Source: Bacteroidetes bacterium B1(2017) (GTDB lineage Bacteria; Bacteroidota; Bacteroidia; UKL13-3). Taken from it: a stretch of 64,000 nt of DNA. Of the stretch, positions 15,443 to 30,171 are shown piece by piece (position 1 is the stretch's first letter; every line of letters begins with the position of its first letter). The stretch covers positions 1,054,001 to 1,118,000 of the forward strand of contig NKJG01000001.1 of assembly GCA_002256395.1 (NCBI GenBank). The letters run 5' to 3'. The notes below the pieces were generated by a model, which worked only from the letters and a program-made list of their open reading frames with translations, was not told the DNA's origin and ran no database searches. Position numbers and translations under genes: made by a program.

Positions 15443-18400
15443 ATGAAAACTAAATTACTCTATCTATCTAAAGGCCTTGTAGGAACAATTTTGTTCCTCC
15501 TCATAGGCACTTTTCAATTGGGGGCTCAGGCCTTGTCTGGCACTTATTCTATCCCAGGAAACTATGCCTCCATTGAAGCTGCCATTGCTGCTTTAAATAC
15601 CAATGGCGTGAGTGGAGCAGTAACCTTTAATATTGGAGCAGGTTCTTCGTATACAGAATTTCCCACCTCCACTTTGGTTTTGGGAAGTGCTACATTAAAT
15701 GCAACAACCTCAAACACCAATACCATCACTTTTCAAAAGGCAGCAACGGCAACAGCCAATCCATTAATAACAGCTTATGCTGGAACTAAGTTAGCCACAT
15801 CTGCCGACTCAATTGATGGTATTTGGGCAATTGCAGGTACCGATTTTGTGACGATTAATGGCATTGATTTGCTTGACCCAACGAGCAATACCACCCCAAC
15901 TACCTGCATGGAATTTGGATACGGTTTGTATAAATTAAACGTAAACGATGGGGTAAATAATACCACCATAAGAAACTGTGTAATTACCTTAAATAGATTA
16001 AATGTAACCGCACCTCCGGCTGGTGCTAGGAGTAATATTGGTGGGTCTACAGGTATAGATATGATAAACGCAACCCGACAAGTAGTAAATACCGCCTTGG
16101 TTCAAACAGCCGTATCTGGTGCAAACTCAAACAATAAATTCTATTCAAACACTATTCAAAACTGTAATTTCGGTATTGCTTTGGCAGGTGCCACTGTTGC
16201 TTCTCCATATACACTTGCTGATTTTAATAATGATATTGGAGGTAACTCTTACTTAACAGGAAATAATATTATCAATTTTGGTGGAGGTGTTGGTGCTACC
16301 ATTCAATGCGGTGCAACTTATATTAGCAACCAATACAATGCAAATATTTCATATAACAATATCAACAACAACGATGGCTCGGGTGTAAATCATCCAGTAA
16401 CCAACCGTGGAATTTGGTTGTTTGGAAATTCACCAGGAGCAAGTATCAATGTTAACTATAACACAATTACCATTAAAAGCGGTGCAGCAACGGGTTCCAT
16501 TAATTGGTGTATAGATATGGAAATGGCACAAACAGGAGCCAATGGAAATACCATTAATATTAACAACAATCAATTACTTAATTGTACAAGTGCCACTGGT
16601 TCAACAGTTGCCTTTACGGGTATTTGGGCAAACTCTGCTCCAACAACCATGAACATTAACAACAATTATTTCTATGGATTTACCTATAATGGAACTGCAG
16701 CCTCTCAAGTAGCATGTATCCTTAATCAGTTGGCTGGTGTTGGAACATTAAATATTAATAACAATAGTATAGATTCTACAACCTTACTTGGAGCATCGGG
16801 TGCGTTTTATAATATTGTATCAACAGCTGCTACTCTTACTGCAACCAATATCAACGGAAACACAATTACTAGAACTACTTTAAATTCTATCGGAGCAGGT
16901 TCTCAAACAATGTATCCTATTTTTAATTCGGGTACAACCCCTGTAGTAAATATAATAGGAAACACCATAAACAACCTTACTAGAAATGGAACAACGGGTG
17001 GCACTACCATTGGTATATATCCATCCAGTGGAACCATTCAAAATGTTAGAAAAAACACCGTTTCTAATATGTCTATTAATGGAACAGGAGCTACATCTAC
17101 CATGTATGGTATTCAAACAAGTTTAGGTGTATTAAATATTGATAGTAATATTGTCTTTAATTTATCTGTAAATAAAGTATCTGGAACAGGTGCTTTGTAT
17201 GGTATCTATAATATTTCATCGCCTACCAACGAAACTTTCTCTAATAATCAAATATACAACCTTACTCACTTAGGAACCGGCTTGGTATATGGTATTTATG
17301 CCTTTACCACCACGGGTGTTAGAACTGTTAGAGACAATACCATTTATAATTTAACAGGGAATGGAGGGAATGTGGTTGGTTTATTAATGCTATCGAGTTC
17401 TCCAACCATTACTAGAAATAAAATTTATAGTTTACGAAGCAATGGTGCCACTACCGGAACCGTTTTTGGCATTTCTTTAACTAGTTTAGGTACCTCTGGT
17501 ATTGCTACCATATCAAACAATTTAATTGATAGTTTAATAGCACCAAATTACAGTGGAACAACCGATGCCATTAGAGGTATTAGCTCAACTATTACAACCG
17601 CTACAACAAGTCTTAGAATTTATTATAATACCATCCGATTAGGTGCTACCACAGGTGGTGCCAACTTCTCTTCGTCGGGTATATTTTTTACGGGCGGAAC
17701 AGTAGCTACTACTGCAACGCTTGATTTAAGAAACAATATTATTGTTAACAATTCAACTCCTATAGGAACAGGCTTAAGTGTGGCTTTAAGAAACTCAACC
17801 ACCACTTTTAGCAACTACGCAAGCACCTCTAACAATAACTTGTTTTATGCGGGTACACCAGGTGTGGCCAACTTAATTTATTATGATGGCGTTAATTCCG
17901 ATCAAACCATTGCTGCATTCAAAAGCAGATTAGTTTCTTTTGAACAAGCCTCGTTTACCGAGAACCCAACTTTTATTAGCAGCATTGGCTCTTCACCAGA
18001 TTTCTTGCACTTAGATTTATCAACGCCTACCCGGTGCGAAAGTGGTGCGGCAAATATTGCTGGTATTACCACCGATTTTGACAATGCGGTTCGTCAAGGA
18101 AATGCTGGTTACCTAGGTAGTGGAGCCGCTCCTGATGTGGGTGCAGATGAAGGCAACTTCCCTGGCATTAGCATGGTGTTAGATTCAATTATGGTGGATC
18201 AAATTACTGCTGCAGTTCCTATTAACTCTACAAACCAACAAATAGTTGCCATACGAGTTCATACCTCAAACAGCTTTGCTCCGTTTACCTTGAGCTCACT
18301 AAAACTAAACACCTCTGGCACTACTAGTGTAAATGATATTCAAAACGCCAAGGTGTACTTTACAGGAAATAGTGCTGCTTTTAATACCAGCACACAATTT

Positions 18401-21400
18401 GGTTCAACCGTTGTTGCTCCTAATGGTACATTTTATATTAACGGTACTAGAACATTAGCCTCTGGAGCCAACTATTTTTGGGTAACCTATGATACCAAAG
18501 CAACAGCTACTGCAAACAATTTTATTGATGTAAGAGTAGATAGTTTAGTAATAGGTGGTACTAATATGGCACCTGCTAATGGCGACCCAATTGGCTCAAG
18601 AAAAATTCTTGCTCCTCTTAACGGAACCTATAACGTGGGCTTGGGTCAAACCTACCCTAGCATTACTGCTGCAAATGCCGATCTAGGAGCTTTGGGCGTA
18701 TCTGGTCCTGTTACCTTTGTTTTAAAAGATGTGATGTATAACGCAGCATCTGGTGAGGTTTTCCCAATAGTTATGAATGCCTATGCTGGTTCTTCTGCTA
18801 CCAATACTGTAAGCATTAGACCTGATGCGGGTGTTTACTCAACTATTGAAGGCAATAACGCTGGCGCTGCACTTGATTTAAATGGAATAAATAACTTTAT
18901 TCTAGATGGTAGACCAGGCGCAACGGGTGGCTTTGTGAGTGGAAATAATTTAATTGTTTCTAACACCAATGGTATTGGTATGGCCATTAGGTTTAATAAC
19001 GAAGCTTCTGCCAACAGAATTCTTTATTGCGATTTGCGTTCAAACAATACCACCGCACCAGGAACCATTAATGCAGGTGTTGTTAACTTTGGCGCAAGCT
19101 CAGGTTTAAATGGAAACGATAACAACACCATTAAGTTTTGCGATATTCATGAGCTAACTGGTGGTAATCCAACCATTGCCATTTCTTCTATTGGCTCTGC
19201 AGTAAGTGTGGCCGCAAACAATGATGGAAACCTAGTGGATAGCTGTAATATTTATAATTTCTTCAATCCAAGCATTGCAACTGCAGCTATTTATGTTGGT
19301 GCTAACAACAGCACTTGGACCATTAATGCAAATAAGTTTTATCAAACTGCTACTATTACCACAACTGGTACTCAAACCCACCGCATTTTATGGGTAACTC
19401 CAAATGTGACATCTTTAACTTCTGCTAGTGGTTTTAATATTACTAATAACGTAATTGGATATACCTCTGCAAACGGAACAGGAACCTACACCATGGCCGG
19501 TACCTCATCGTATCAGTTTTATGCTATGGATATTTCTGTTGGTTTAGGTGCAGCAACCTCGGTTCAAAACAATACCATCACTAACTTTTCTTTTACCAGT
19601 GGCTTTTCTGGAAATGGCACATATGGAATTAACGTAGCTAATGGAAATGTAAACGTGGGTACTGTTACCGGTAACCTCTTTGGATCAACCACTACCAATG
19701 GCGCATTTACCTTTACAACTACCACAACCAATGGCGGTTTAATAGCCTTCCGCTCAGGTGCGGGTGGTACCATAAATTTCTCTAATAATATTGCTTCAGG
19801 AATTGATTTAATAAGTAATAGTACAACCTTATACACCAGCTTCAACGGTATTGCTGGTTCTGGTGGTGCTAATTTAATTATTAACAACAATACCATTGGT
19901 AGCCCAAGTTTAGCCAACAGTATTAATGTTGTTTCTACCTCTGCAACCGCAACAGCTGCTTCTCCTACAAGGGGTATTATTTGCAATAGCGGAACAGCAG
20001 GTGTTATTAATACAATTACCAATAATACTATTGCCAATATCAACTCAAACTATGCGGCAACAGGTACTCAAGCAACCAGTTTGGTAGGTATTGCCGTTAC
20101 AACAGGAACAAGCATAATTACAGGTAATACAATCAAAAATCTTACTACAGCTACCCAAACAACTGCAGGTGGTAGTACCAGTGCAATTGTGGGTATTGCG
20201 TATACCTCAACCACTGCTCCTACCACTATTACTAACAACTCAATTAGTGCCTTGGTATTAACCGGTACCTCAACCACTGCCGCTGTGCAAGCAGAAGCTA
20301 TGTTTTATTCTGGACCAACAACAGGTACTAACATAGTAAGCCGTAATTTGGTGCATAGCATGTCTATGAACGCATCTAATCCCAATGTTTACTTAACAGG
20401 TTTTGATGTGGCAAATGGTATTGGAAACTTCCAAAACAACATGATTCGTTTAGGATATGATTCAATAGGTGTAGATGTTCTTTCTCCTGCCATTTTTAGA
20501 GGTATCTCTAAAAACTCGGGTAGCTTTAACTTCTACAACAATTCAGTATTTATTGGCGGTAATGGAATTACAACTGGAGCCTCCAATACCTTTGCTTTTC
20601 AAAGAACAGGCACAGGCGTAGATATTGTTAGAAACAATGTTTTTGTCAATAACCGCTCTAATTCAGGTGCAACAGGTAAACACTACCAAGTATTCTTATT
20701 AAATAATACCACCATTACCCAAAATAATAATGTGTATTACGGCAATGGTACTGGTGCTGTATTTGCTACGTTAAACAATGGAGCTAGTGATGTTATTTCT
20801 TATTCATCTGGTTGGTTAGCGTCTGATTTAAATAGCGTATATGCTAACCCACAATTTATTAATGCAACGGGTTCGGCAAGCACGGGAGATTTACATATAA
20901 GCACAACCCTAGCTACACCTGTTGAAGCTAGTGGAGCAGTAATTGCAGCTGTTACGGATGATTACGATGGGCAAGCTCGTTCTGGTTTAACTCCTACAGA
21001 TATTGGTGCCGACGCTGGTAACTTTGTTCCACTAGATTTGTTTGCTCCTGTGTTTGGAAACTTTACCGTTTCTAACACTTCTTCTACAGGGGATAGAATT
21101 TTTACTGTAAACATTACAGATTTAACTGGTGTGCCTTTAGCTTCTGGCTCTGAACCAAGAGTGTATTTCAAAAAGTTTGCTACCGGTACTTGGTCTTCTA
21201 CAGCTGCAACAAGAACAAGTGGGAATGCCCAAAACGGAACCTATAACTTTACCATTTCTCAAAGTGCTTTAGGTGGCTTGAGCCTGAACGATTCGGTGTA
21301 TTTCTTCCTAATTGCACAAGATTCGGCTGCGGCCACAAACATTGCCTCTTTCCCTGGTGGAGCATCTGCTAGCAATGTTGGTACTATAACCAACCCTCCT

Positions 21401-24400
21401 GCAAGTTTCTTATCATACAAAATTGTAGGTGGAATAAGTGGAAGTATAAACGTGGGTATAGGTCAAACCTACACCTCTCTTACCGGCGTAGGCGGTTTAT
21501 TTGAAGCTATAAATAATGGTTCCATTACAAGCAATATCACAGCAGTTATTACCAGTGATTTAACAGAAGATGGAACAAACGGTTTGAACCAAATAAATGA
21601 AACAGGCCTTGGAAATTACACTGTATCGATAGTCCCTGATGGCACTACCGAACGATTAATTGCGGGTTCTTTTGCTGGCGGTTTAATAAGATTCAATGGT
21701 GCAGATAGAGTAAAAATTGATGGTAGATTTGCTGGATCCGGTAGGTACTTAAGAATTAGAAACAGAGTTCTTGGCGGCTATACTATTAATATGCAAAACG
21801 ATGCACTTAGAGATACCGTTACATATTGCCATATCGAAAGTGTAAATAACACTGTTGGTACCGTTACTTTTTTAGGAACAACAGGCACAATTGGTAACGA
21901 TTCAAATGCCATTACCTATTGCATTATTAGAGATACCCTTGGTACCATTTCTACGAGCAATATTCCTAATACCGGGTTTTTTAGTCAGGGTACTGCTGGC
22001 ATTGGAAACGATTACAACACCTTTGCCAATAACGAAATTGCCAATTTTGGTTTTAACGGTATGAACCTAAGTACCACAGCGGGCGACTTCTGGAATATTG
22101 CTAACAATAGTTTTTATCAAACTATTGCAAAAGCTAATGCCATGAATATTCTCCAAATTGATGGTGGTAATGGACTAACTATAACAGGAAACAGCATTGG
22201 TGGATCAAATGCGGTAAGAGGCGGAACAGCTTTTACAACAACTTCTACAACCACTCCAAATATTGTTGGCTTAAGAATAAACAATGCAGTAACCACTGCA
22301 AACATTAGCAACAATACGTTTTCAAACATTGCCAGTATTCAAGCAGTAAACTTAATTTCAATATCTGCTGGAACAGCAACTATTAATAACAATACGTTTG
22401 GTGGTGCTGCTCAAGCTTATGATACTATCCAAAATGGGTTCGACAATGGAATTATTACTGTAACAGGTGGTACCGTTACTATCACAAACAATTTAATAGG
22501 AAATGTAAATTACTACGACAATGCAGGAGATAGAACAAGCGGTATTACCATTTCTGGCGGAACCGTTGTTGCTGCAGGAAATACCATTAGAGATTTACGC
22601 TCCAATTCAAGTGGAACAGCCTTTACCTTTTTGGTAAATGGAATCCAAATTAGTGGTGGAACAAACCATAACATAGAGAACAATACCATTTATAATATTG
22701 TAAATACCAACACAGGCGCTTCTGCCTATACAGCAACCGGTATTACCTTAAATTCTGGAACCAACGTAACTATCCAACGTAATAGAATTTATAATATCTG
22801 GGGACTTGGAACAGGAACAGGTGCTTCTTCAAACCAAGTGTTTGGTATCTATAATGCCAATACATTAAACAGTACTATTCTTAACAACCAAATTAGCATA
22901 GGAAATAATACCATTGGCGAAACAAGAGTTTATGGTATACAAGATGTGTCTGGTTCGGGAAATGACTTGGTATATAACAATACCATTTTTGTTACCGGAA
23001 CTACATTGGGTGGTTCAAATAATTCGTATTGTTTACAAAGAACGGGGTTGGGTGCTATAAGCAGTTTTAACAATATCTTTTATAATAAAAGAACAAGTAC
23101 TGGAACAGGGTTTAATTATGCTACCGGAACCAATTCATTAACAGGAATTGCACCTTCTACAACTAATTACAACCTTTATGTAGTAAATGATACTACCAAA
23201 GTTGCCGAATCGCCATTGGGGGTTGCCAACAGTGCTTCTATCTTTAACACTCTTTATACAAGTGTAAATACCTATTCTTCTAATTGGTATGCCTTGTCAA
23301 GTGCCGTACCTGCTCAAACCATGTTTACCGATACACTTACAGGAAACTTAGGAATTGTTAGTACCAATGCAAATGCATGGTATGCAAATGGAAAAGGTTT
23401 GCCATTAGCTGCTGTTAGCAACGATTATAACAATAGCGCACGTTCTACAACTATAGCAGGTGGAGCTACAGATTTAGGTTCAACCAATTTTATTCCTACC
23501 TCTACACCTCCTGCCGCAACTGCTAGCGCAGCTCCAGCACCTAATACCACAACAACCTATACGTTTGCTGGCCGTATGGTGGCAAGTATAAATTGGGGCA
23601 CTACAGGAACTGTTCCAACTAGTGTAAGTGTAGTATATTATACCGGAACCAATGCTCCTAATTTATTGGCATCAAAAACCCAATACAATGCCTACTATGC
23701 AATTACAGCTATAGGTGGTGCGGGTTATACCTATGGAATTAGTCTTATTTCAGATTCGGCTACTTTTGGAAATGTTGCGGGAACAAACGCGAGCAAAATT
23801 GCTAGATATACTGGTACTACTTGGAATTTGATTTCCAATTCTTCGGCAACTGCTTTTAACGGAAACATGCTAACAACAGGCAATAACCAAACAGTTTTTG
23901 GCAATTTTGCTGGAACCGATTTCCTTAACAATCCTTTGCCAGTTGAGATGTTAAACTTTAATGCATCGCTCCTTAATTCAGATGTATTATTGAATTGGGC
24001 AACTAGTTCAGAAAAAAACAATAAGGGTTTTGAAGTTGAAAAATCAAGTGATGGTGTTTCATTTACAAACATTGGTTTTGTAAAAGGAGCTTCAAATTCT
24101 TCCACTACACAAACCTATAAGCACCTAGATGCAAATGCCTTTGAGAATGCACCAAGCACTGCACTTTACTATCGCTTAAAACAAGTAGACCAGGATGGCA
24201 AATACACTTATTCTAAGGTAGCAATAGTTTCTAAAGATGTTAAAGAATCTAAACAAGTTGTTGTTTTCCCTAATCCGTTTACTACACACTTTGACCTAGT
24301 ACTTACTGGTGCAAAAAATGAGACCATTACTATTGAAACAAGCAACATAGAAGGTAAGCAGGTAAATAGCCAAGTAAAAACCTTAAACGAAACAGGCGTA

Positions 24401-24505
24401 AACGTGCTTAGCACCCAAAACCTAGAATCATTACCTGCTGGTATTTACTTTGTGAGAGTTACACATTTGGATACCATTCAAGTATTTAAACTAGTGAAAA
24501 ACTAA
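15443..24505 (+). CDS. Giant (3020-residue) secreted parallel beta-helix protein with T9SS type A sorting domain
   Basis: The signal peptide ends at about residue 29 (LGAQA). Three large modules share the opening pattern GTYxxxxxYxSIxAA followed by VSGxVTF: near 32, near 1060 (GTYNVGLGQTYPSITAANAD) and near 2000 (SINVGIGQTYTSLTGVGG). Each is followed by hundreds of residues of short N/T/G/I repeats (NNNxI, ISNNTI, ITGNTI) typical of right-handed parallel beta-helices. Linkers lie at about 909-1050 and at 1867-1990, the latter with an immunoglobulin-like look. A segment from about 2832 (PVEMLNFNASLLNSDVLLNW) precedes the sorting domain at about 2941-3020 (VFPNPFTTHFDLVL to PAGIYFVRVTHLD). It is exported to the surface or medium by the T9SS. 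Adhesin or polysaccharide-binding/lyase-like roles are possible; no catalytic residues are assigned. Confidence 0.85.
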   Translation: MKTKLLYLSKGLVGTILFLLIGTFQLGAQALSGTYSIPGNYASIEAAIAALNTNGVSGAVTFNIGAGSSYTEFPTSTLVLGSATLNATTSNTNTITFQKAATATANPLITAYAGTKLATSADSIDGIWAIAGTDFVTINGIDLLDPTSNTTPTTCMEFGYGLYKLNVNDGVNNTTIRNCVITLNRLNVTAPPAGARSNIGGSTGIDMINATRQVVNTALVQTAVSGANSNNKFYSNTIQNCNFGIALAGATVASPYTLADFNNDIGGNSYLTGNNIINFGGGVGATIQCGATYISNQYNANISYNNINNNDGSGVNHPVTNRGIWLFGNSPGASINVNYNTITIKSGAATGSINWCIDMEMAQTGANGNTININNNQLLNCTSATGSTVAFTGIWANSAPTTMNINNNYFYGFTYNGTAASQVACILNQLAGVGTLNINNNSIDSTTLLGASGAFYNIVSTAATLTATNINGNTITRTTLNSIGAGSQTMYPIFNSGTTPVVNIIGNTINNLTRNGTTGGTTIGIYPSSGTIQNVRKNTVSNMSINGTGATSTMYGIQTSLGVLNIDSNIVFNLSVNKVSGTGALYGIYNISSPTNETFSNNQIYNLTHLGTGLVYGIYAFTTTGVRTVRDNTIYNLTGNGGNVVGLLMLSSSPTITRNKIYSLRSNGATTGTVFGISLTSLGTSGIATISNNLIDSLIAPNYSGTTDAIRGISSTITTATTSLRIYYNTIRLGATTGGANFSSSGIFFTGGTVATTATLDLRNNIIVNNSTPIGTGLSVALRNSTTTFSNYASTSNNNLFYAGTPGVANLIYYDGVNSDQTIAAFKSRLVSFEQASFTENPTFISSIGSSPDFLHLDLSTPTRCESGAANIAGITTDFDNAVRQGNAGYLGSGAAPDVGADEGNFPGISMVLDSIMVDQITAAVPINSTNQQIVAIRVHTSNSFAPFTLSSLKLNTSGTTSVNDIQNAKVYFTGNSAAFNTSTQFGSTVVAPNGTFYINGTRTLASGANYFWVTYDTKATATANNFIDVRVDSLVIGGTNMAPANGDPIGSRKILAPLNGTYNVGLGQTYPSITAANADLGALGVSGPVTFVLKDVMYNAASGEVFPIVMNAYAGSSATNTVSIRPDAGVYSTIEGNNAGAALDLNGINNFILDGRPGATGGFVSGNNLIVSNTNGIGMAIRFNNEASANRILYCDLRSNNTTAPGTINAGVVNFGASSGLNGNDNNTIKFCDIHELTGGNPTIAISSIGSAVSVAANNDGNLVDSCNIYNFFNPSIATAAIYVGANNSTWTINANKFYQTATITTTGTQTHRILWVTPNVTSLTSASGFNITNNVIGYTSANGTGTYTMAGTSSYQFYAMDISVGLGAATSVQNNTITNFSFTSGFSGNGTYGINVANGNVNVGTVTGNLFGSTTTNGAFTFTTTTTNGGLIAFRSGAGGTINFSNNIASGIDLISNSTTLYTSFNGIAGSGGANLIINNNTIGSPSLANSINVVSTSATATAASPTRGIICNSGTAGVINTITNNTIANINSNYAATGTQATSLVGIAVTTGTSIITGNTIKNLTTATQTTAGGSTSAIVGIAYTSTTAPTTITNNSISALVLTGTSTTAAVQAEAMFYSGPTTGTNIVSRNLVHSMSMNASNPNVYLTGFDVANGIGNFQNNMIRLGYDSIGVDVLSPAIFRGISKNSGSFNFYNNSVFIGGNGITTGASNTFAFQRTGTGVDIVRNNVFVNNRSNSGATGKHYQVFLLNNTTITQNNNVYYGNGTGAVFATLNNGASDVISYSSGWLASDLNSVYANPQFINATGSASTGDLHISTTLATPVEASGAVIAAVTDDYDGQARSGLTPTDIGADAGNFVPLDLFAPVFGNFTVSNTSSTGDRIFTVNITDLTGVPLASGSEPRVYFKKFATGTWSSTAATRTSGNAQNGTYNFTISQSALGGLSLNDSVYFFLIAQDSAAATNIASFPGGASASNVGTITNPPASFLSYKIVGGISGSINVGIGQTYTSLTGVGGLFEAINNGSITSNITAVITSDLTEDGTNGLNQINETGLGNYTVSIVPDGTTERLIAGSFAGGLIRFNGADRVKIDGRFAGSGRYLRIRNRVLGGYTINMQNDALRDTVTYCHIESVNNTVGTVTFLGTTGTIGNDSNAITYCIIRDTLGTISTSNIPNTGFFSQGTAGIGNDYNTFANNEIANFGFNGMNLSTTAGDFWNIANNSFYQTIAKANAMNILQIDGGNGLTITGNSIGGSNAVRGGTAFTTTSTTTPNIVGLRINNAVTTANISNNTFSNIASIQAVNLISISAGTATINNNTFGGAAQAYDTIQNGFDNGIITVTGGTVTITNNLIGNVNYYDNAGDRTSGITISGGTVVAAGNTIRDLRSNSSGTAFTFLVNGIQISGGTNHNIENNTIYNIVNTNTGASAYTATGITLNSGTNVTIQRNRIYNIWGLGTGTGASSNQVFGIYNANTLNSTILNNQISIGNNTIGETRVYGIQDVSGSGNDLVYNNTIFVTGTTLGGSNNSYCLQRTGLGAISSFNNIFYNKRTSTGTGFNYATGTNSLTGIAPSTTNYNLYVVNDTTKVAESPLGVANSASIFNTLYTSVNTYSSNWYALSSAVPAQTMFTDTLTGNLGIVSTNANAWYANGKGLPLAAVSNDYNNSARSTTIAGGATDLGSTNFIPTSTPPAATASAAPAPNTTTTYTFAGRMVASINWGTTGTVPTSVSVVYYTGTNAPNLLASKTQYNAYYAITAIGGAGYTYGISLISDSATFGNVAGTNASKIARYTGTTWNLISNSSATAFNGNMLTTGNNQTVFGNFAGTDFLNNPLPVEMLNFNASLLNSDVLLNWATSSEKNNKGFEVEKSSDGVSFTNIGFVKGASNSSTTQTYKHLDANAFENAPSTALYYRLKQVDQDGKYTYSKVAIVSKDVKESKQVVVFPNPFTTHFDLVLTGAKNETITIETSNIEGKQVNSQVKTLNETGVNVLSTQNLESLPAGIYFVRVTHLDTIQVFKLVKN

Positions 24506-26491: not shown

Positions 26492-27280
26492 ATGAGCGAT
26501 TTTAAAGTACGTACCATGGCCGATATGATGGCCGCAGGTGAAGAAGTAGAGGTTTTGTTTTGGGTAGGCTGCGCTGGAAGTTTTGATGAACGTGCACAAA
26601 AAATTACCAAAGCGGTTGCTAAAATTCTGCACGCTGCTTCTATTAAATTTGCTATCCTAGGTACAGAAGAAGCATGTACTGGCGACCCTGCCAAGCGCGC
26701 TGGTAACGAGTTCTTGTTTCAAATGATGGCCATGCAAAACATTGAATTAATGAATGCATACGACATCAAAAAAATTGTTACTGCTTGTCCTCATTGCTTT
26801 AATACCCTAAAAAACGAATACCCTGCCTTGGGTGGTAATTATGAGGTGGTGCATCATACAACTTTAATTAACCAACTTTTGGCCGATGGAAAGATAAGCA
26901 TTCAAGGGGGTGCCTTTGCCGGCCAACGCATTACTTACCACGATAGCTGTTATCTTGGTAGAGCAAATAATATTTACGAAGCACCAAGAGAAATTATTGC
27001 CAAATTAGATGCTGCGTTAATTGAAATGAAACGTAGCAAGGCTAATGGTTTATGCTGTGGTGCCGGTGGTGCGCAAATGTTTAAAGAAGCAGAAGAAGGT
27101 AAAAAAGAGGTGAACCTTGAACGTGCCGATGATATCTTGGAAGCCAATCCTGGTATTGTTGCAGCTGCTTGTCCTTTCTGTATGACCATGCTGAGAGATG
27201 GTGTTAAACACCACAATAAAGAAGCAGAAATTGAAGTAAAAGACATTGCCGAATTAGTGGCAAATGCCATGGATTTATAA
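26492..27280 (+). CDS. CCG-domain iron-sulfur oxidoreductase subunit (HdrD/GlpC/LutA-like)
   Basis: 262 residues, soluble. Two cysteine-rich CCG-type modules are visible: an N-terminal one with VTACPHCFNTLKNEYP and YHDSCYLGRANN, and a C-terminal one with GLCCGAGGAQMF and AAACPFCMTML. Such domains bind a [4Fe-4S] cluster in heterodisulfide reductase and glycolate/lactate oxidase subunits. It probably docks on the membrane subunit encoded just upstream and takes part in two-electron transfer to quinone. The gene ends 27280 and is followed by a short hairpin (GTCCTT/AAGGAC, 27281-27295) with no clear T run. Confidence 0.85.
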   Translation: MSDFKVRTMADMMAAGEEVEVLFWVGCAGSFDERAQKITKAVAKILHAASIKFAILGTEEACTGDPAKRAGNEFLFQMMAMQNIELMNAYDIKKIVTACPHCFNTLKNEYPALGGNYEVVHHTTLINQLLADGKISIQGGAFAGQRITYHDSCYLGRANNIYEAPREIIAKLDAALIEMKRSKANGLCCGAGGAQMFKEAEEGKKEVNLERADDILEANPGIVAAACPFCMTMLRDGVKHHNKEAEIEVKDIAELVANAMDL

Positions 27281-27309: not shown

Positions 27310-27341
27310 TTTGCTTTTTAAAAATCCTTGCCATTTATTTG
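27310..27341 (+). promoter_or_regulatory. Probable promoter of the methionine leader/operon
   Basis: TTTG at 27310-27313, 20 nt, then TTTATTTG at 27334-27341 (7 of 8 to TAnnTTTG). Transcription would begin about 6 nt later, leaving only a few bases before the first leader ATG at 27353. The TTTG also forms the loop of a small AAAAAG/CTTTTT hairpin. Confidence 0.45.
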
Positions 27342-27352
27342 CTCCAACAAAA

Positions 27353-27409
27353 ATGAACAAACAAACTATGTATATGATGATGATGTGCCGCCTACCTGAG
27401 GGGAACTAA
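27353..27409 (+). CDS. Methionine leader peptide 1 (18 residues)
   Basis: The frame reads MNKQTMYMMMMCRLPEGN and stop: six Met in 18 residues, four of them consecutive ATG codons at 27374-27385. It begins a few bases after the predicted transcription start and is preceded by an A-rich stretch (CAACAAAA), like other starts here. Its codons for Leu-Pro-Glu-Gly (CTGAGGGG, 27396-27403) are complementary to the 5' arm of the terminator at 27432. The peptide itself probably has no function; translation speed through the Met codons is the signal. It is upstream of methionine biosynthesis genes. Confidence 0.85.
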   Translation: MNKQTMYMMMMCRLPEGN

Positions 27410-27431
27410 ATTAGTATATACCTAATAATAG

Positions 27432-27467
27432 AAAAGCCTCTCAGATAAACTCTGAGGGGCTTTTTTT
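27432..27467 (+). terminator. Attenuator terminator 1
   Basis: AAAAGCCTCTCAGA (27432-27445) pairs with TCTGAGGGGCTTTT (27451-27464), loop TAAAC, T run to 27467. The arm CCTCTCAG (27437-27444) can instead pair with CTGAGGGG inside leader 1: 8 bp with one G-U. Confidence 0.9.
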
Positions 27468-27483
27468 ATTTCTAACAAACAAC

Positions 27484-27573
27484 ATGAACAAGAATACTCA
27501 ATTAATGCAACTAAACTCAATGATGATGATGCAAGCCATGCAACATCAGCGGGGAGTGTATGTTCTTAATTGA
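27484..27573 (+). CDS. Methionine leader peptide 2 (29 residues)
   Basis: The frame reads MNKNTQLMQLNS, MMMM, QAMQHQRGVYVLN and stop: seven Met in 29 residues, again with four consecutive ATG codons (27520-27531). It begins with MNK-T like leader 1 and shares the AACAAC-ATG context with leader 1 and with the structural gene at 27688, which suggests duplication of one attenuator unit. The segment GCGGGG (27549-27554) can pair with TCCCGC in the 5' arm of terminator 2; GGGAG with CTCCC is a second register. Confidence 0.85.
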   Translation: MNKNTQLMQLNSMMMMQAMQHQRGVYVLN

Positions 27574-27601
27574 TCCAATTTACTAGCTAATTGGCAATTA
27601 A
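27566..27601 (+). other. Hairpin between leader 2 and its terminator
   Basis: TTAATTG (27566-27572) and CCAATT (27575-27580) pair with AATTGG (27589-27594) and CAATTAA (27595-27601), giving 13 bp with a 2-nt bulge and 8-nt loop. It begins inside the last codons of leader 2. Likely a pause or spacer hairpin that a ribosome at the stop codon would disrupt; this is inference. Confidence 0.65.
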
Positions 27602-27640
27602 AAAAAGCCCTCCCGCAATACGCAGGAGGGCTTTTTTTTT
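27601..27640 (+). terminator. Attenuator terminator 2
   Basis: GCCCTCC (27607-27613) pairs with GGAGGGC (27625-27631), extended outward by A/T pairs (27601-27606 with 27632-27637) and followed by a run of nine T. It ends 47 nt before the ATG of the methionine gene, so it can only act on this transcript. Confidence 0.9.
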
Positions 27641-27687: not shown

Positions 27688-28884
27688 ATGACAACACAAC
27701 AACTAAGCACACAGATCATCCATTCTATTCCAGTTGATCCACTAACAGGAGCTATTAGTGTTCCTATCTATCAAACTTCCACCTTTGTGCAAGAAGCACC
27801 CGGCGTTCACAAAGGCTTTGATTATTCTAGAACAAATAATCCAACCCGCAAAATCTTAGAAGACATTCTTACCAACCTAGAACAAGGCGATGCTGGTTTT
27901 GCCTTTGCTAGCGGACTTGCAGCGGTAGATGCCGTATTAAAATTGCTGAAAGCAGGCGATGAAATTTTAGCTGTAGACGATATCTATGGAGGCTCGTTTA
28001 GAATCTTTACGCATATCTATCAGAAATTTGGTATTACAGTTAAGTATATCAACACCACAGATATTACCGAAGTAATTGAACACATAAGCGAGCAAACAAA
28101 GTTTATTTGGATAGAAACTCCCACCAACCCCACACTTAAGGTTTCTGATATTAGAGCTATCTCAGCCATCGCAAAAACTGTTGATGCGCTATTGGTTGTA
28201 GACAATACCTTTGCCTCACCTGCTTTGCAACAACCCATTTTGTTAGGTGCAGATATAGTAATTCATAGCGCAACAAAATACTTGGGTGGACATAGTGATA
28301 TTATTGCAGGTGCCGTAATTACTAAGACTCCCGAGCTAAGCGAAAAAATAAAGTTTATTCAAAATGCCTCTGGAACTATCCTTGCGCCATTTGATTCTTG
28401 GTTGCTTATTAGAGGCATTGAAACCCTTCCATTACGCATACAAAAGCATTGCGAAAACGCGGTTCAAATTGCTAATTATTTAAAATCAGAGCCCCTTATT
28501 GATAAGCTGTATTACCCTGGTTTAGCATCGCACCACAACCATCTAATTGCTAAAAAACAACAAAGTGCTTTTGGTTCGGTAATATCCTTTACCCTTAAAA
28601 CAGATACCCTTGAAGCCGCGCAAGAATTTGTTTGTGAAACCCAATTATTTAAACTCGCCGAAAGCCTTGGTGGTGTTAAAAGTTTGCTCTGTCACCCCGC
28701 ACAAATGACACATAAATCTATTCCTGCACCAACTAGGCAAGCGGCAGGAGTAGCCGATTCTTTGATACGCCTATCGGTTGGTTTAGAAGATGCAACAGAC
28801 TTAATAAATGATCTTAAACAAGCATTTAAAAAAGTTGCGCTGAACCAAAAAAAGACAGAAATACTAACAAACACTTTAGCGTAA
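27688..28884 (+). CDS. metB: Cystathionine gamma-synthase / O-acylhomoserine sulfhydrylase type PLP enzyme
   Basis: 398 residues of the Cys/Met-metabolism PLP family. Conserved blocks: YSRTNNPTRKILE near the N-terminus, FASGLAAVDAVL, ETPTNPTLKVSD, VDNTFASPALQQP, and HSATKYLGGHSD, in which Lys197 is the Schiff-base lysine. Members join O-acyl-homoserine with cysteine or sulfide, or cleave cystathionine. The Met-leader attenuators upstream and the homoserine dehydrogenase 9 nt downstream point to the biosynthetic direction (gamma-synthase or sulfhydrylase) rather than a lyase. The exact substrate cannot be told from sequence, so the symbol is tentative. Confidence 0.85.
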   Translation: MTTQQLSTQIIHSIPVDPLTGAISVPIYQTSTFVQEAPGVHKGFDYSRTNNPTRKILEDILTNLEQGDAGFAFASGLAAVDAVLKLLKAGDEILAVDDIYGGSFRIFTHIYQKFGITVKYINTTDITEVIEHISEQTKFIWIETPTNPTLKVSDIRAISAIAKTVDALLVVDNTFASPALQQPILLGADIVIHSATKYLGGHSDIIAGAVITKTPELSEKIKFIQNASGTILAPFDSWLLIRGIETLPLRIQKHCENAVQIANYLKSEPLIDKLYYPGLASHHNHLIAKKQQSAFGSVISFTLKTDTLEAAQEFVCETQLFKLAESLGGVKSLLCHPAQMTHKSIPAPTRQAAGVADSLIRLSVGLEDATDLINDLKQAFKKVALNQKKTEILTNTLA

Positions 28885-28893
28885 AATAAGACC

Positions 28894-30171
28894 ATGACTA
28901 AGAAACTAACTATTGGCCTATTTGGCTACGGCTGCGTAGGTTCGGGGCTATTTAAGGTGCTGAACCAAGTGCCCAATTTGACGATACAAATCAAAACTAT
29001 TTGTGTTAAAAACAAAGGCAAAACAAGAGACATTGCTCCTTCTCATTTTACCTTTGATAAGAACCAAATAATAAATGATCCAGAAATTAATTTGGTGGTA
29101 GAATTAATAGATAATGCCGAGGAAGCATTTGAAATAGTTCATGCTGCCTTAAGCAATGGAAAGGCGGTGGTTACGGCCAACAAAAAAATGTTGGCTCAGC
29201 ATTTTCAAACACTCACTAATTTATCAAAAGAAAAAAACGCTGCACTCTTATATGAGGCCGCGGTGGCAGGTGCAATTCCAATTATTAGAACCCTAGAAGA
29301 ATACTATAAAAACGATTCTATAACACGTATTGAAGGTATCTTAAACGGCACTAGCAATTTAATTGTAAGTAAAACTCAAAATCCAAAGTACACCTATGCT
29401 AGTGCCTTAGAGGAGGCGCAAAAACAAGGCTTCGCAGAGTCAAACCCAAAATTAGATGTAGAAGGATTTGATTCGAAATTTAAGCTCTGCCTATTACTTG
29501 CACACGCCTATGGTTTGATAGTAAACCCAGAGGAGATTGTTACACTTGGAATTCAAAACTTACTTCCATGCGACAGCAACTTTGCGCGTGAAAAAAACCA
29601 ATGCATTAAACTTATTGCCCATGCTTCTATAAAGGAAGGTAAAATAACGGCCTTTGTAGTGCCTCGATTAGTGCCACCTTCAAGCCTTTTTTCAGAGGTA
29701 AAAAATGAATTTAATGGCATTCAAGTCGACTCTGATTTTACAGATACACAATTTTTCATTGGCAAAGGTGCGGGCCATTTACCTACCGCAGCGGCAGTGC
29801 TTTCAGACATTTCTGCTCTTCAAAATACCTATGTGTATCCATTAACTAAACTACAAAAGGCAAGCAAACTTTCGCTTCATACGCATGCTGTGCTTAGGGT
29901 ATATCTAAGATATGTAAATCCCGAAACCTTAGGCCAAATTAGGTTTCAAACAATAGAACAAAAATATCAACGTTCAACGCATACCTATGTTATTGGAAAG
30001 ATTGCTCTCAAGGAATTACTCGCCTTGCAATTAAGAGCTCATCCCGATGTGTTTGTTGCCGAAATAAGCGCAACAAACTTGGTTCAAAAATCTCTACAAG
30101 AAGATAGTACTCATGAACGCTGGGATCAACATTCTGACGTGTTCTTAGAGAGTATTCCCTTGTTAGCTTAA
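28894..30171 (+). CDS. hom: Homoserine dehydrogenase
   Basis: 425 residues. The N-terminal NAD(P)-binding motif is GLFGYGCVGSGLF; ANKKMLA and EAAVAGAIPIIRTLEEY mark the substrate domain, and ILNGTSNLIV with LDVEGFDSKFKLCLLLAHA follow in the conserved catalytic region. It reduces aspartate semialdehyde to homoserine, the branch point to methionine and threonine. The C-terminal 100 residues could be a regulatory domain but I cannot call a clean ACT motif. It is cotranscribed with the metB-like gene and so falls under the Met attenuator. This suggests a methionine-dedicated isozyme. Its 3' end overlaps the convergent alkB gene by 4 nt. Confidence 0.9.
   Translation: MTKKLTIGLFGYGCVGSGLFKVLNQVPNLTIQIKTICVKNKGKTRDIAPSHFTFDKNQIINDPEINLVVELIDNAEEAFEIVHAALSNGKAVVTANKKMLAQHFQTLTNLSKEKNAALLYEAAVAGAIPIIRTLEEYYKNDSITRIEGILNGTSNLIVSKTQNPKYTYASALEEAQKQGFAESNPKLDVEGFDSKFKLCLLLAHAYGLIVNPEEIVTLGIQNLLPCDSNFAREKNQCIKLIAHASIKEGKITAFVVPRLVPPSSLFSEVKNEFNGIQVDSDFTDTQFFIGKGAGHLPTAAAVLSDISALQNTYVYPLTKLQKASKLSLHTHAVLRVYLRYVNPETLGQIRFQTIEQKYQRSTHTYVIGKIALKELLALQLRAHPDVFVAEISATNLVQKSLQEDSTHERWDQHSDVFLESIPLLA

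Follow-up and report, generated by a model that had tools for sequence, protein, structure and literature searches.

Paired methionine-rich leader frames and intrinsic terminators ahead of metB-like and hom genes: a probable tandem attenuator in Bacteroidota

The locus lies within a 64-kb stretch of DNA that was analysed as a whole and is called the window here; all features described at the locus are on the plus strand. A gene with CCG cysteine-rich domains (Pfam PF02754; 26492-27280) is followed by a metB-like gene for a Cys/Met PLP enzyme (27688-28884), on the same strand, and by hom, encoding homoserine dehydrogenase (28894-30171; NF004976, 323.3 bits, exceeding the cut-off of 205). The best NCBIfam matches of the metB-like gene are cystathionine gamma-lyase/synthase models, but all 25 matches shown score below the model cut-offs, so that its exact reaction is not settled. 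Upstream of the leader region, the window also holds an ORF of 3020 residues (15443-24505), apparently a secreted repeat protein.

The gap between the end of the upstream gene at 27280 and metB at 27688 is 407 nt long and holds two short ORFs and their hairpins. Leader ORF 1 (27353-27409; peptide MNKQTMYMMMMCRLPEGN) has 18 codons with 6 Met, including four consecutive ATG codons (27374-27385) that are followed by one Cys codon. Leader ORF 2 (27484-27573; peptide MNKNTQLMQLNSMMMMQAMQHQRGVYVLN) has 29 codons with 7 Met, including again four ATG codons in a row (27520-27531) and one more Met codon at 27538-27540. Both frames were read from the sequence and start MNK-T, and an earlier note on this DNA had their counts and coordinates right. 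That note had also placed an intrinsic terminator behind each leader and the metB-like and hom genes after them, and both statements hold. Terminator 1 (27430-27466) was returned by the hairpin scan and has a folding energy of -19.5 kcal/mol. The core stem of terminator 2 (27599-27640) spans 27607-27631, and its T tract ends at 27640; the isolated hairpin has -20.0 kcal/mol and is absent from the list produced by a simple terminator scan. The two leader-plus-terminator stretches fold with z = -4.99 and -5.04 relative to shuffles, and 47 nt separate the T tract of terminator 2 from the metB start.

A promoter-like element, TTTG-N20-TTTATTTG (27310-27341), lies 11 nt 5' of leader 1 and scores 9/10; we take it to be a promoter of the Bacteroidota -33/-7 type, using a consensus from general knowledge. 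Scores of at least 9 were obtained in 86/2000 random 75-nt stretches of the window. The best score 5' of leader 2 is only 5, so one promoter and a single transcript would serve both leaders. Across 12 leader starts, the promoter score was 9 in seven, 8 in three, 7 in one and 5 in one, the last being the window's leader 2. Leader 1 could also be read as a longer frame from an upstream TTG; this was set aside, as the ATG at 27353 better fits the promoter-like element, and antisense short ORFs behind the mirror image of terminator 2 were set aside as well.

The runs of ATG codons are hard to obtain by chance in this gap. Dinucleotide shuffling of the 407 nt (n = 20,000) gave one (ATG)4 run in a single shuffle and two runs in none, and sequences from a second-order Markov model with parameters taken from the gap had at least one run in 123/20,000 cases and two runs in 0/20,000. 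The whole genome has eight listed matches to (ATG)4, two of them overlapping, which correspond to seven places. Judged by eye, the five places other than the leaders fall inside longer coding frames, four of them encoding Asp runs in another frame and one encoding Met in frame. When intergenic ATG-started ORFs of 7-45 aa with a terminator after them were scanned across the 64-kb window, leaders 1 and 2 were the only ones with a run of three or more identical amino acids.

Both leaders contain candidate antiterminator arms. In leader 1, CTGAGGGG (27396-27403) is complementary to the 5' arm of terminator 1, CCTCTCAG (27437-27444), with a duplex energy of -14.3 kcal/mol (p = 0.018, 1000 shuffles). 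The pair of leader 2, CGGGGAG (27550-27556) with CCTCCCG (27609-27615), has -12.9 kcal/mol and p = 0.069 versus shuffles. Both tails form a stronger duplex with their own terminator than across units (leader 1, -14.3 vs -9.2 kcal/mol; leader 2, -12.9 vs -7.9 kcal/mol). The predicted fold of the nascent RNA ending at the terminator loop is the antiterminator, and the predicted fold once the RNA up to just past the stop codon is removed is the terminator. For naked nascent RNA of leader 1, i.e., in the absence of a ribosome, the antiterminator pair has a probability of approximately 0.99, and a protecting or pause hairpin of the E. coli trp type was not found in this fold. Read-through, not termination, is therefore predicted for untranslated leader 1 RNA, and we do not class this unit as a trp-type four-segment attenuator. 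The nascent RNA of leader 2 gives pair probabilities of 0.23-0.95 in two registers. In the fold models, the leader 1 antiterminator clearly overlaps its leader and excludes the terminator, and that of leader 2 is probable only. Equilibrium folding of the full-length transcript favours the terminator, and does so (at -25.1 kcal/mol) also when a ribosome is stalled on it, so the antiterminator must form first and the order of formation matters, as it does in other attenuators.

The earlier note had proposed that the two leaders arose by duplication. An alignment of the two blocks does score 94, where the best of 300 mononucleotide shuffles reached 66, but the similarity consists largely of shared functional parts (the ATG run and the terminator), and common constraint explains it equally well; duplication is thus not shown.

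We propose, with a probability of roughly 0.85, that 27353-27640 comprises two serial ribosome-mediated transcription attenuators that control metB-hom via the supply of Met-tRNA. Tandem Met-codon attenuation, put forward in the earlier note, is the best-supported reading: the codons, terminators, spacing and leader 1 antiterminator fit it, and the pattern recurs before sulfur genes elsewhere. The codons, the terminators, the leader 1 antiterminator and the distribution are computed; from them we infer translation of the leaders, its coupling to transcription, the methionine response and the logic of the series. In the proposed mechanism, an antiterminator in the last codons of each leader would pair with the 5' arm of the leader's own terminator. 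When Met-tRNA is plentiful, the ribosome would reach the stop codon and cover the antiterminator, allowing the terminator to form; when it is scarce, the ribosome would halt in the ATG run, the antiterminator would form first and the polymerase would pass. Since naked leader 1 RNA already folds as the antiterminator, the switch would be on by default and turned off by translation. Methionine starvation also hits initiation, and a working Met-codon switch must therefore not need initiation to turn on. The predicted default-on fold of leader 1 would meet this problem, with poor initiation under fMet shortage pushing towards the on state as well. With serial units, the read-through of one would be multiplied by that of the other, so that the operon would leak less and respond more steeply.

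A strong MetB orthologue (E<=1e-145) is present in 7/64 genomes of the family, and G011 has a MetB fragment at a contig end. In G015, which belongs to the same genus, the conservation that the earlier note had suggested checking is partial. Before metB, this genome has a leader, MINQQNMRMHSMCFLSEGPLACMR, with Met codons, CTGAGGGG, the matching terminator (the counterpart of terminator 1) and a further terminator; its upstream region has no ATG run and no counterpart of leader 2. The Met codons of G015 are interspersed rather than repeated, and the antiterminator pair is kept. The pattern CTGAGGGG-N20-50-CCTCTCAG occurs in 2/64 family genomes, both times at this metB leader. G041, from another genus, is the same DNA as metB relative L009 where the two were compared. 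Its metB is preceded by two Met/His/Cys-rich short ORFs (-442 to -110; at -442 and -179 in L009), and no intrinsic terminator was found there. The other four MetB-bearing family genomes (G029, G033, G034 and G042) have a SAM-I riboswitch before metB.

SAM-I, which senses SAM directly, is the usual element at this position. An Rfam search of the 64-kb window gave no match at gathering score to SAM-I (RF00162), SAM-II (RF01726), T-box or any other family. By contrast, a covariance model built from eight Rfam-called SAM-I sequences places SAM-I upstream in 75/77 usable metB relatives (table counted by hand), these being the best 80 of 463 less L010, L060 and L079, which have too little upstream DNA. 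The model was used in place of a regular expression that found 35 and missed many. A terminator mostly follows SAM-I at these loci, and in L040, SAM-I lies approximately 760 nt upstream. The two relatives without SAM-I are L009 (G041) and L076. Across the family, 42/64 genomes have SAM-I above the cut-off; the genome of the window has a single match, before a split metH, and the same holds for G015 (genes assigned by Pfam). An ancestral SAM-I riboswitch thus seems to have given way to Met leaders at metB-hom. We infer this direction from the presence of SAM-I in nearly all relatives, which makes replacement the simpler course. In three genomes with Met/Cys leaders (L262, L263 and L264), a scan with the SAM-I model that covered 90/91 metX stretches (L312 was left out) places SAM-I within the cluster, directly upstream of metX.

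As a separate observation, SAM-II (RF01726) occurs in opposite orientation to nearby Met/Cys leader operons, at L160:2973-3033 (G041), L265:5563-5622, L262:3454-3560 and L263:5653-5756. In G041, SAM-II lies just before metK and SAM-I before a homocysteine methyltransferase gene. The neighbourhood in this genome would combine two riboswitch types, SAM-I and SAM-II, with a Met and a Cys leader.

The earlier note had recommended a search of related genomes for similar leaders. We found metX matches at E<=1e-40 in 100/247 genomes of the class and, for 91 of the 100, read neighbourhoods no longer than 7.1 kb, plus 30 shorter loci. The label metX rests on E-values, since TIGR01392 had no match above its curated cut-off in any genome; the metX of G041 is low at 171 bits, and five genomes of family f54 have 155-179 bits. 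Leaders coded for Met and/or Cys and followed by a terminator are present, often in pairs, in 11/100 metX-bearing genomes, plus G041. The figure of 11/100 is a lower bound for these neighbourhoods, since the thresholds miss weak cases and only metX neighbourhoods were read. The tandem that the earlier note called unusual is thus real in the window but no lone oddity, as similar and often paired Met/Cys leaders exist in other Bacteroidia. Two leaders in series are found in G116 and G067 (MM..MCCCC and MMCCCC), and likewise in G147, G209, G126, G251 and G277, the first of G251 and of G277 being poor in Met and Cys; G161, G111, G133 and G088 have one leader found. The second leader of G147, the first of G277 and the Cys leader of G041 were identified by eye and not by script. 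Rfam searches on the leaders of 13 loci gave no match at gathering score. L039, L280 and L310 were considered weak and not counted: L039 and L280 have three Met/Cys each, with L280 far from its terminator, and L310 has 13 aa.

The genes behind these leaders point to sulfur metabolism. In G041, a Met-coded leader comes first and a Cys-coded one second, both with terminators of their own, ahead of metX-thrA-metY, where metY is our own label for what Pfam calls a Cys/Met PLP enzyme. A MetY-like gene (33-39% to the G041 protein) is downstream in G147, G111, G126, G161 and G209, and a nitrite/sulfite reductase family gene, probably a sulfite reductase, in G116, G133, G067 and G088; G251 has an OsmC-like gene. 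The tail of the first G041 leader, TCCGCAGAGG, is the same in L265 and almost the same in L262. Taken with the low metX score that G041 shares with the five f54 genomes, this may point to joint movement of operon and attenuator. At L072:3320-3490, a very Cys-rich leader ending in TCCCCYMQMTCCGCC and its terminator are followed by a DUF4395 gene and a tRNA gene, with no evident sulfur biosynthesis gene behind the leader. L303 and L306 (G133 and G088) have Cys leaders of the CCCSAMCCC type before the nitrite/sulfite reductase gene; their distance from stop codon to terminator is unusually long (59 and 57 nt), and no antiterminator was found in them.

Across 174 loci, MMM runs occur in 5/48 intergenic short ORFs closely before a terminator vs 0/2392 others (p = 2.4e-9), and CCC runs in 5/48 vs 37/2392 (p = 0.0012). 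These values are optimistic, as are the pooled ones below, because the thresholds were picked after earlier scans, the loci lie round metB/metX and include the window (two of the five MMM cases), and some of the genomes appear related. None of the 18 other amino acids has a run of three among the 48 terminator-linked ORFs, a number that gives little power for amino acids other than Met and Cys. A looser tally of 98 short ORFs with a terminator gave Leu 8, Cys 8, Ile 7, Met 5, Lys 4, Ser 4, Gln 3 plus a few others; only Met and Cys are left once runs of three and a nearer terminator are required. Among 24 Met/Cys elements, which had been selected for leader and terminator, 21 have 21-33 nt between stop codon and terminator. 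An antiterminator is found at p<0.05 in 14 and at p<0.01 in 7, a pooled significance that is overstated since some genomes look related (G116/G067, G126/G161 and G133/G088). Near misses are leader 2 of the window (0.069), the second leader of G116 (0.053) and L072 (0.089), and clear misses are both leaders of G277, those of G133, G088 and G111, and the second ones of G209 and G041.

Several other explanations bear on the same data. The signal could be mainly cysteine, or a general slow-down of translation, with the Met codons only helping. MetB uses cysteine, a Cys codon directly follows the Met run of leader 1, and many related leaders are coded for both amino acids or mainly for Cys. For this locus we nonetheless consider such a signal unlikely, since leader 2 has no Cys codon and leader 1 has one against six Met. 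It is distinctly unlikely that the leaders act via translation (reinitiation or start-site occlusion) or via Rho instead of attenuation at intrinsic terminators, as each window leader is followed, at the usual spacing, by a strong terminator. The weak antiterminator of leader 2 and the G041 metB, with its Met/His/Cys-rich ORFs and no evident intrinsic terminator, would agree with such a mode, but terminator 2 ends 47 nt 5' of metB and termination would therefore precede any reinitiation.

Another possibility is that the terminators only end the transcript of the upstream gene and that the ATG runs are an (ATG)n microsatellite without regulatory role. That gene does end at 27280 on the same strand, (ATG)4 exists at five other places in the genome, and G015 lacks the run. 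We regard this as very unlikely, however, because two terminators are present, each preceded by a Met-rich ORF whose tail is complementary to it; because the Met codons of G015 are interspersed, form no repeat and still come with the antiterminator pair; because MMM in intergenic short ORFs was found only before terminators; and because sulfur genes elsewhere are preceded by the same layout. Finally, an undescribed metabolite-binding riboswitch with incidental short ORFs would suit a position at which related operons have SAM-I, yet it is scarcely credible given the lack of an Rfam gathering-score match in the window, the Met/Cys specificity of the codon runs and the little sequence left besides leader, antiterminator and terminator.

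Beyond the serial Met-tRNA attenuators proposed for the window, a broader picture can be drawn, to which we give somewhat less than even odds: Met/Cys attenuators would be widespread in Bacteroidota, often serial and on by default. They would read the charging of elongator and initiator Met-tRNA and swap with SAM riboswitches on shared operons, and their serial terminators would sharpen the response or combine Met and Cys signals. With SAM-I at metH and Met leaders at metB-hom, sensors of SAM and of Met-tRNA would split one pathway between them. SAM-I and Met leaders seem to have swapped on one operon, which would be a clean case of one RNA sensor replacing another, and the paired Met/Cys leaders would offer a testable example of serial terminators as a logic device.

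Methionine control in bacteria is generally attributed to SAM riboswitches, T-boxes or repressors, and leader-peptide transcription attenuators are known for the trp, his, leu, thr, ilv and phe operons. Canestrari 2020 reportedly deals with cysteine leaders of Actinobacteria, and Lopatovskaya 2010 is said to cover attenuation across bacteria. Like the trp, his, leu, thr, ilv and phe attenuators, the window has short ORFs rich in codons for the product, an antiterminator/terminator pair and an intrinsic terminator before the operon; unlike them, it has Met codons, two serial units and a leader 1 without a protecting hairpin. SAM-I (RF00162) occupies the same place before metB relatives, yet is absent from the window leader. 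Swaps between a riboswitch or T-box and a leader peptide have been described, according to excerpts of one study (PMC2965389). No methionine leader-peptide attenuator is described among the open PMC matches listed, as far as their excerpts go; these mostly exclude the subscription literature, where an earlier mention is possible. The tandem attenuators of Salmonella mgtCBR respond to two signals, ATP and proline, and are called a singular example in the excerpted source (PMC3641672). They too have two short ORFs per leader, each acting on transcription (PMC3641672). In the window, by contrast, the two leaders are both coded for Met and precede a biosynthetic operon. The cysteine leaders of Actinobacteria likewise are short ORFs that precede a sulfur operon and contain codons for a sulfur amino acid, but in the portions available they are cysteine only, have no conserved terminator hairpins and are accompanied by no conserved structure before methionine operons (PMC1262725). 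In Rhodobacterales, uORFC-8-2 before cysS has Cys codons and then an intrinsic terminator; it differs in phylum, in preceding a tRNA synthetase gene and in being described, in the extract at hand, as one uORF (PMC8632094). Within the same phylum, short ORFs in 5' UTRs are said to resemble attenuation leaders in Flavobacterium psychrophilum, before amino acid biosynthesis operons (PMC9723704), and in Bacteroides thetaiotaomicron (PMC7366714), with no Met or Cys case named in the extracts of these two papers. Set against these systems, what would be new here is the proposed methionine specificity, the serial arrangement, the predicted default-on folding and the apparent exchange with SAM-I.
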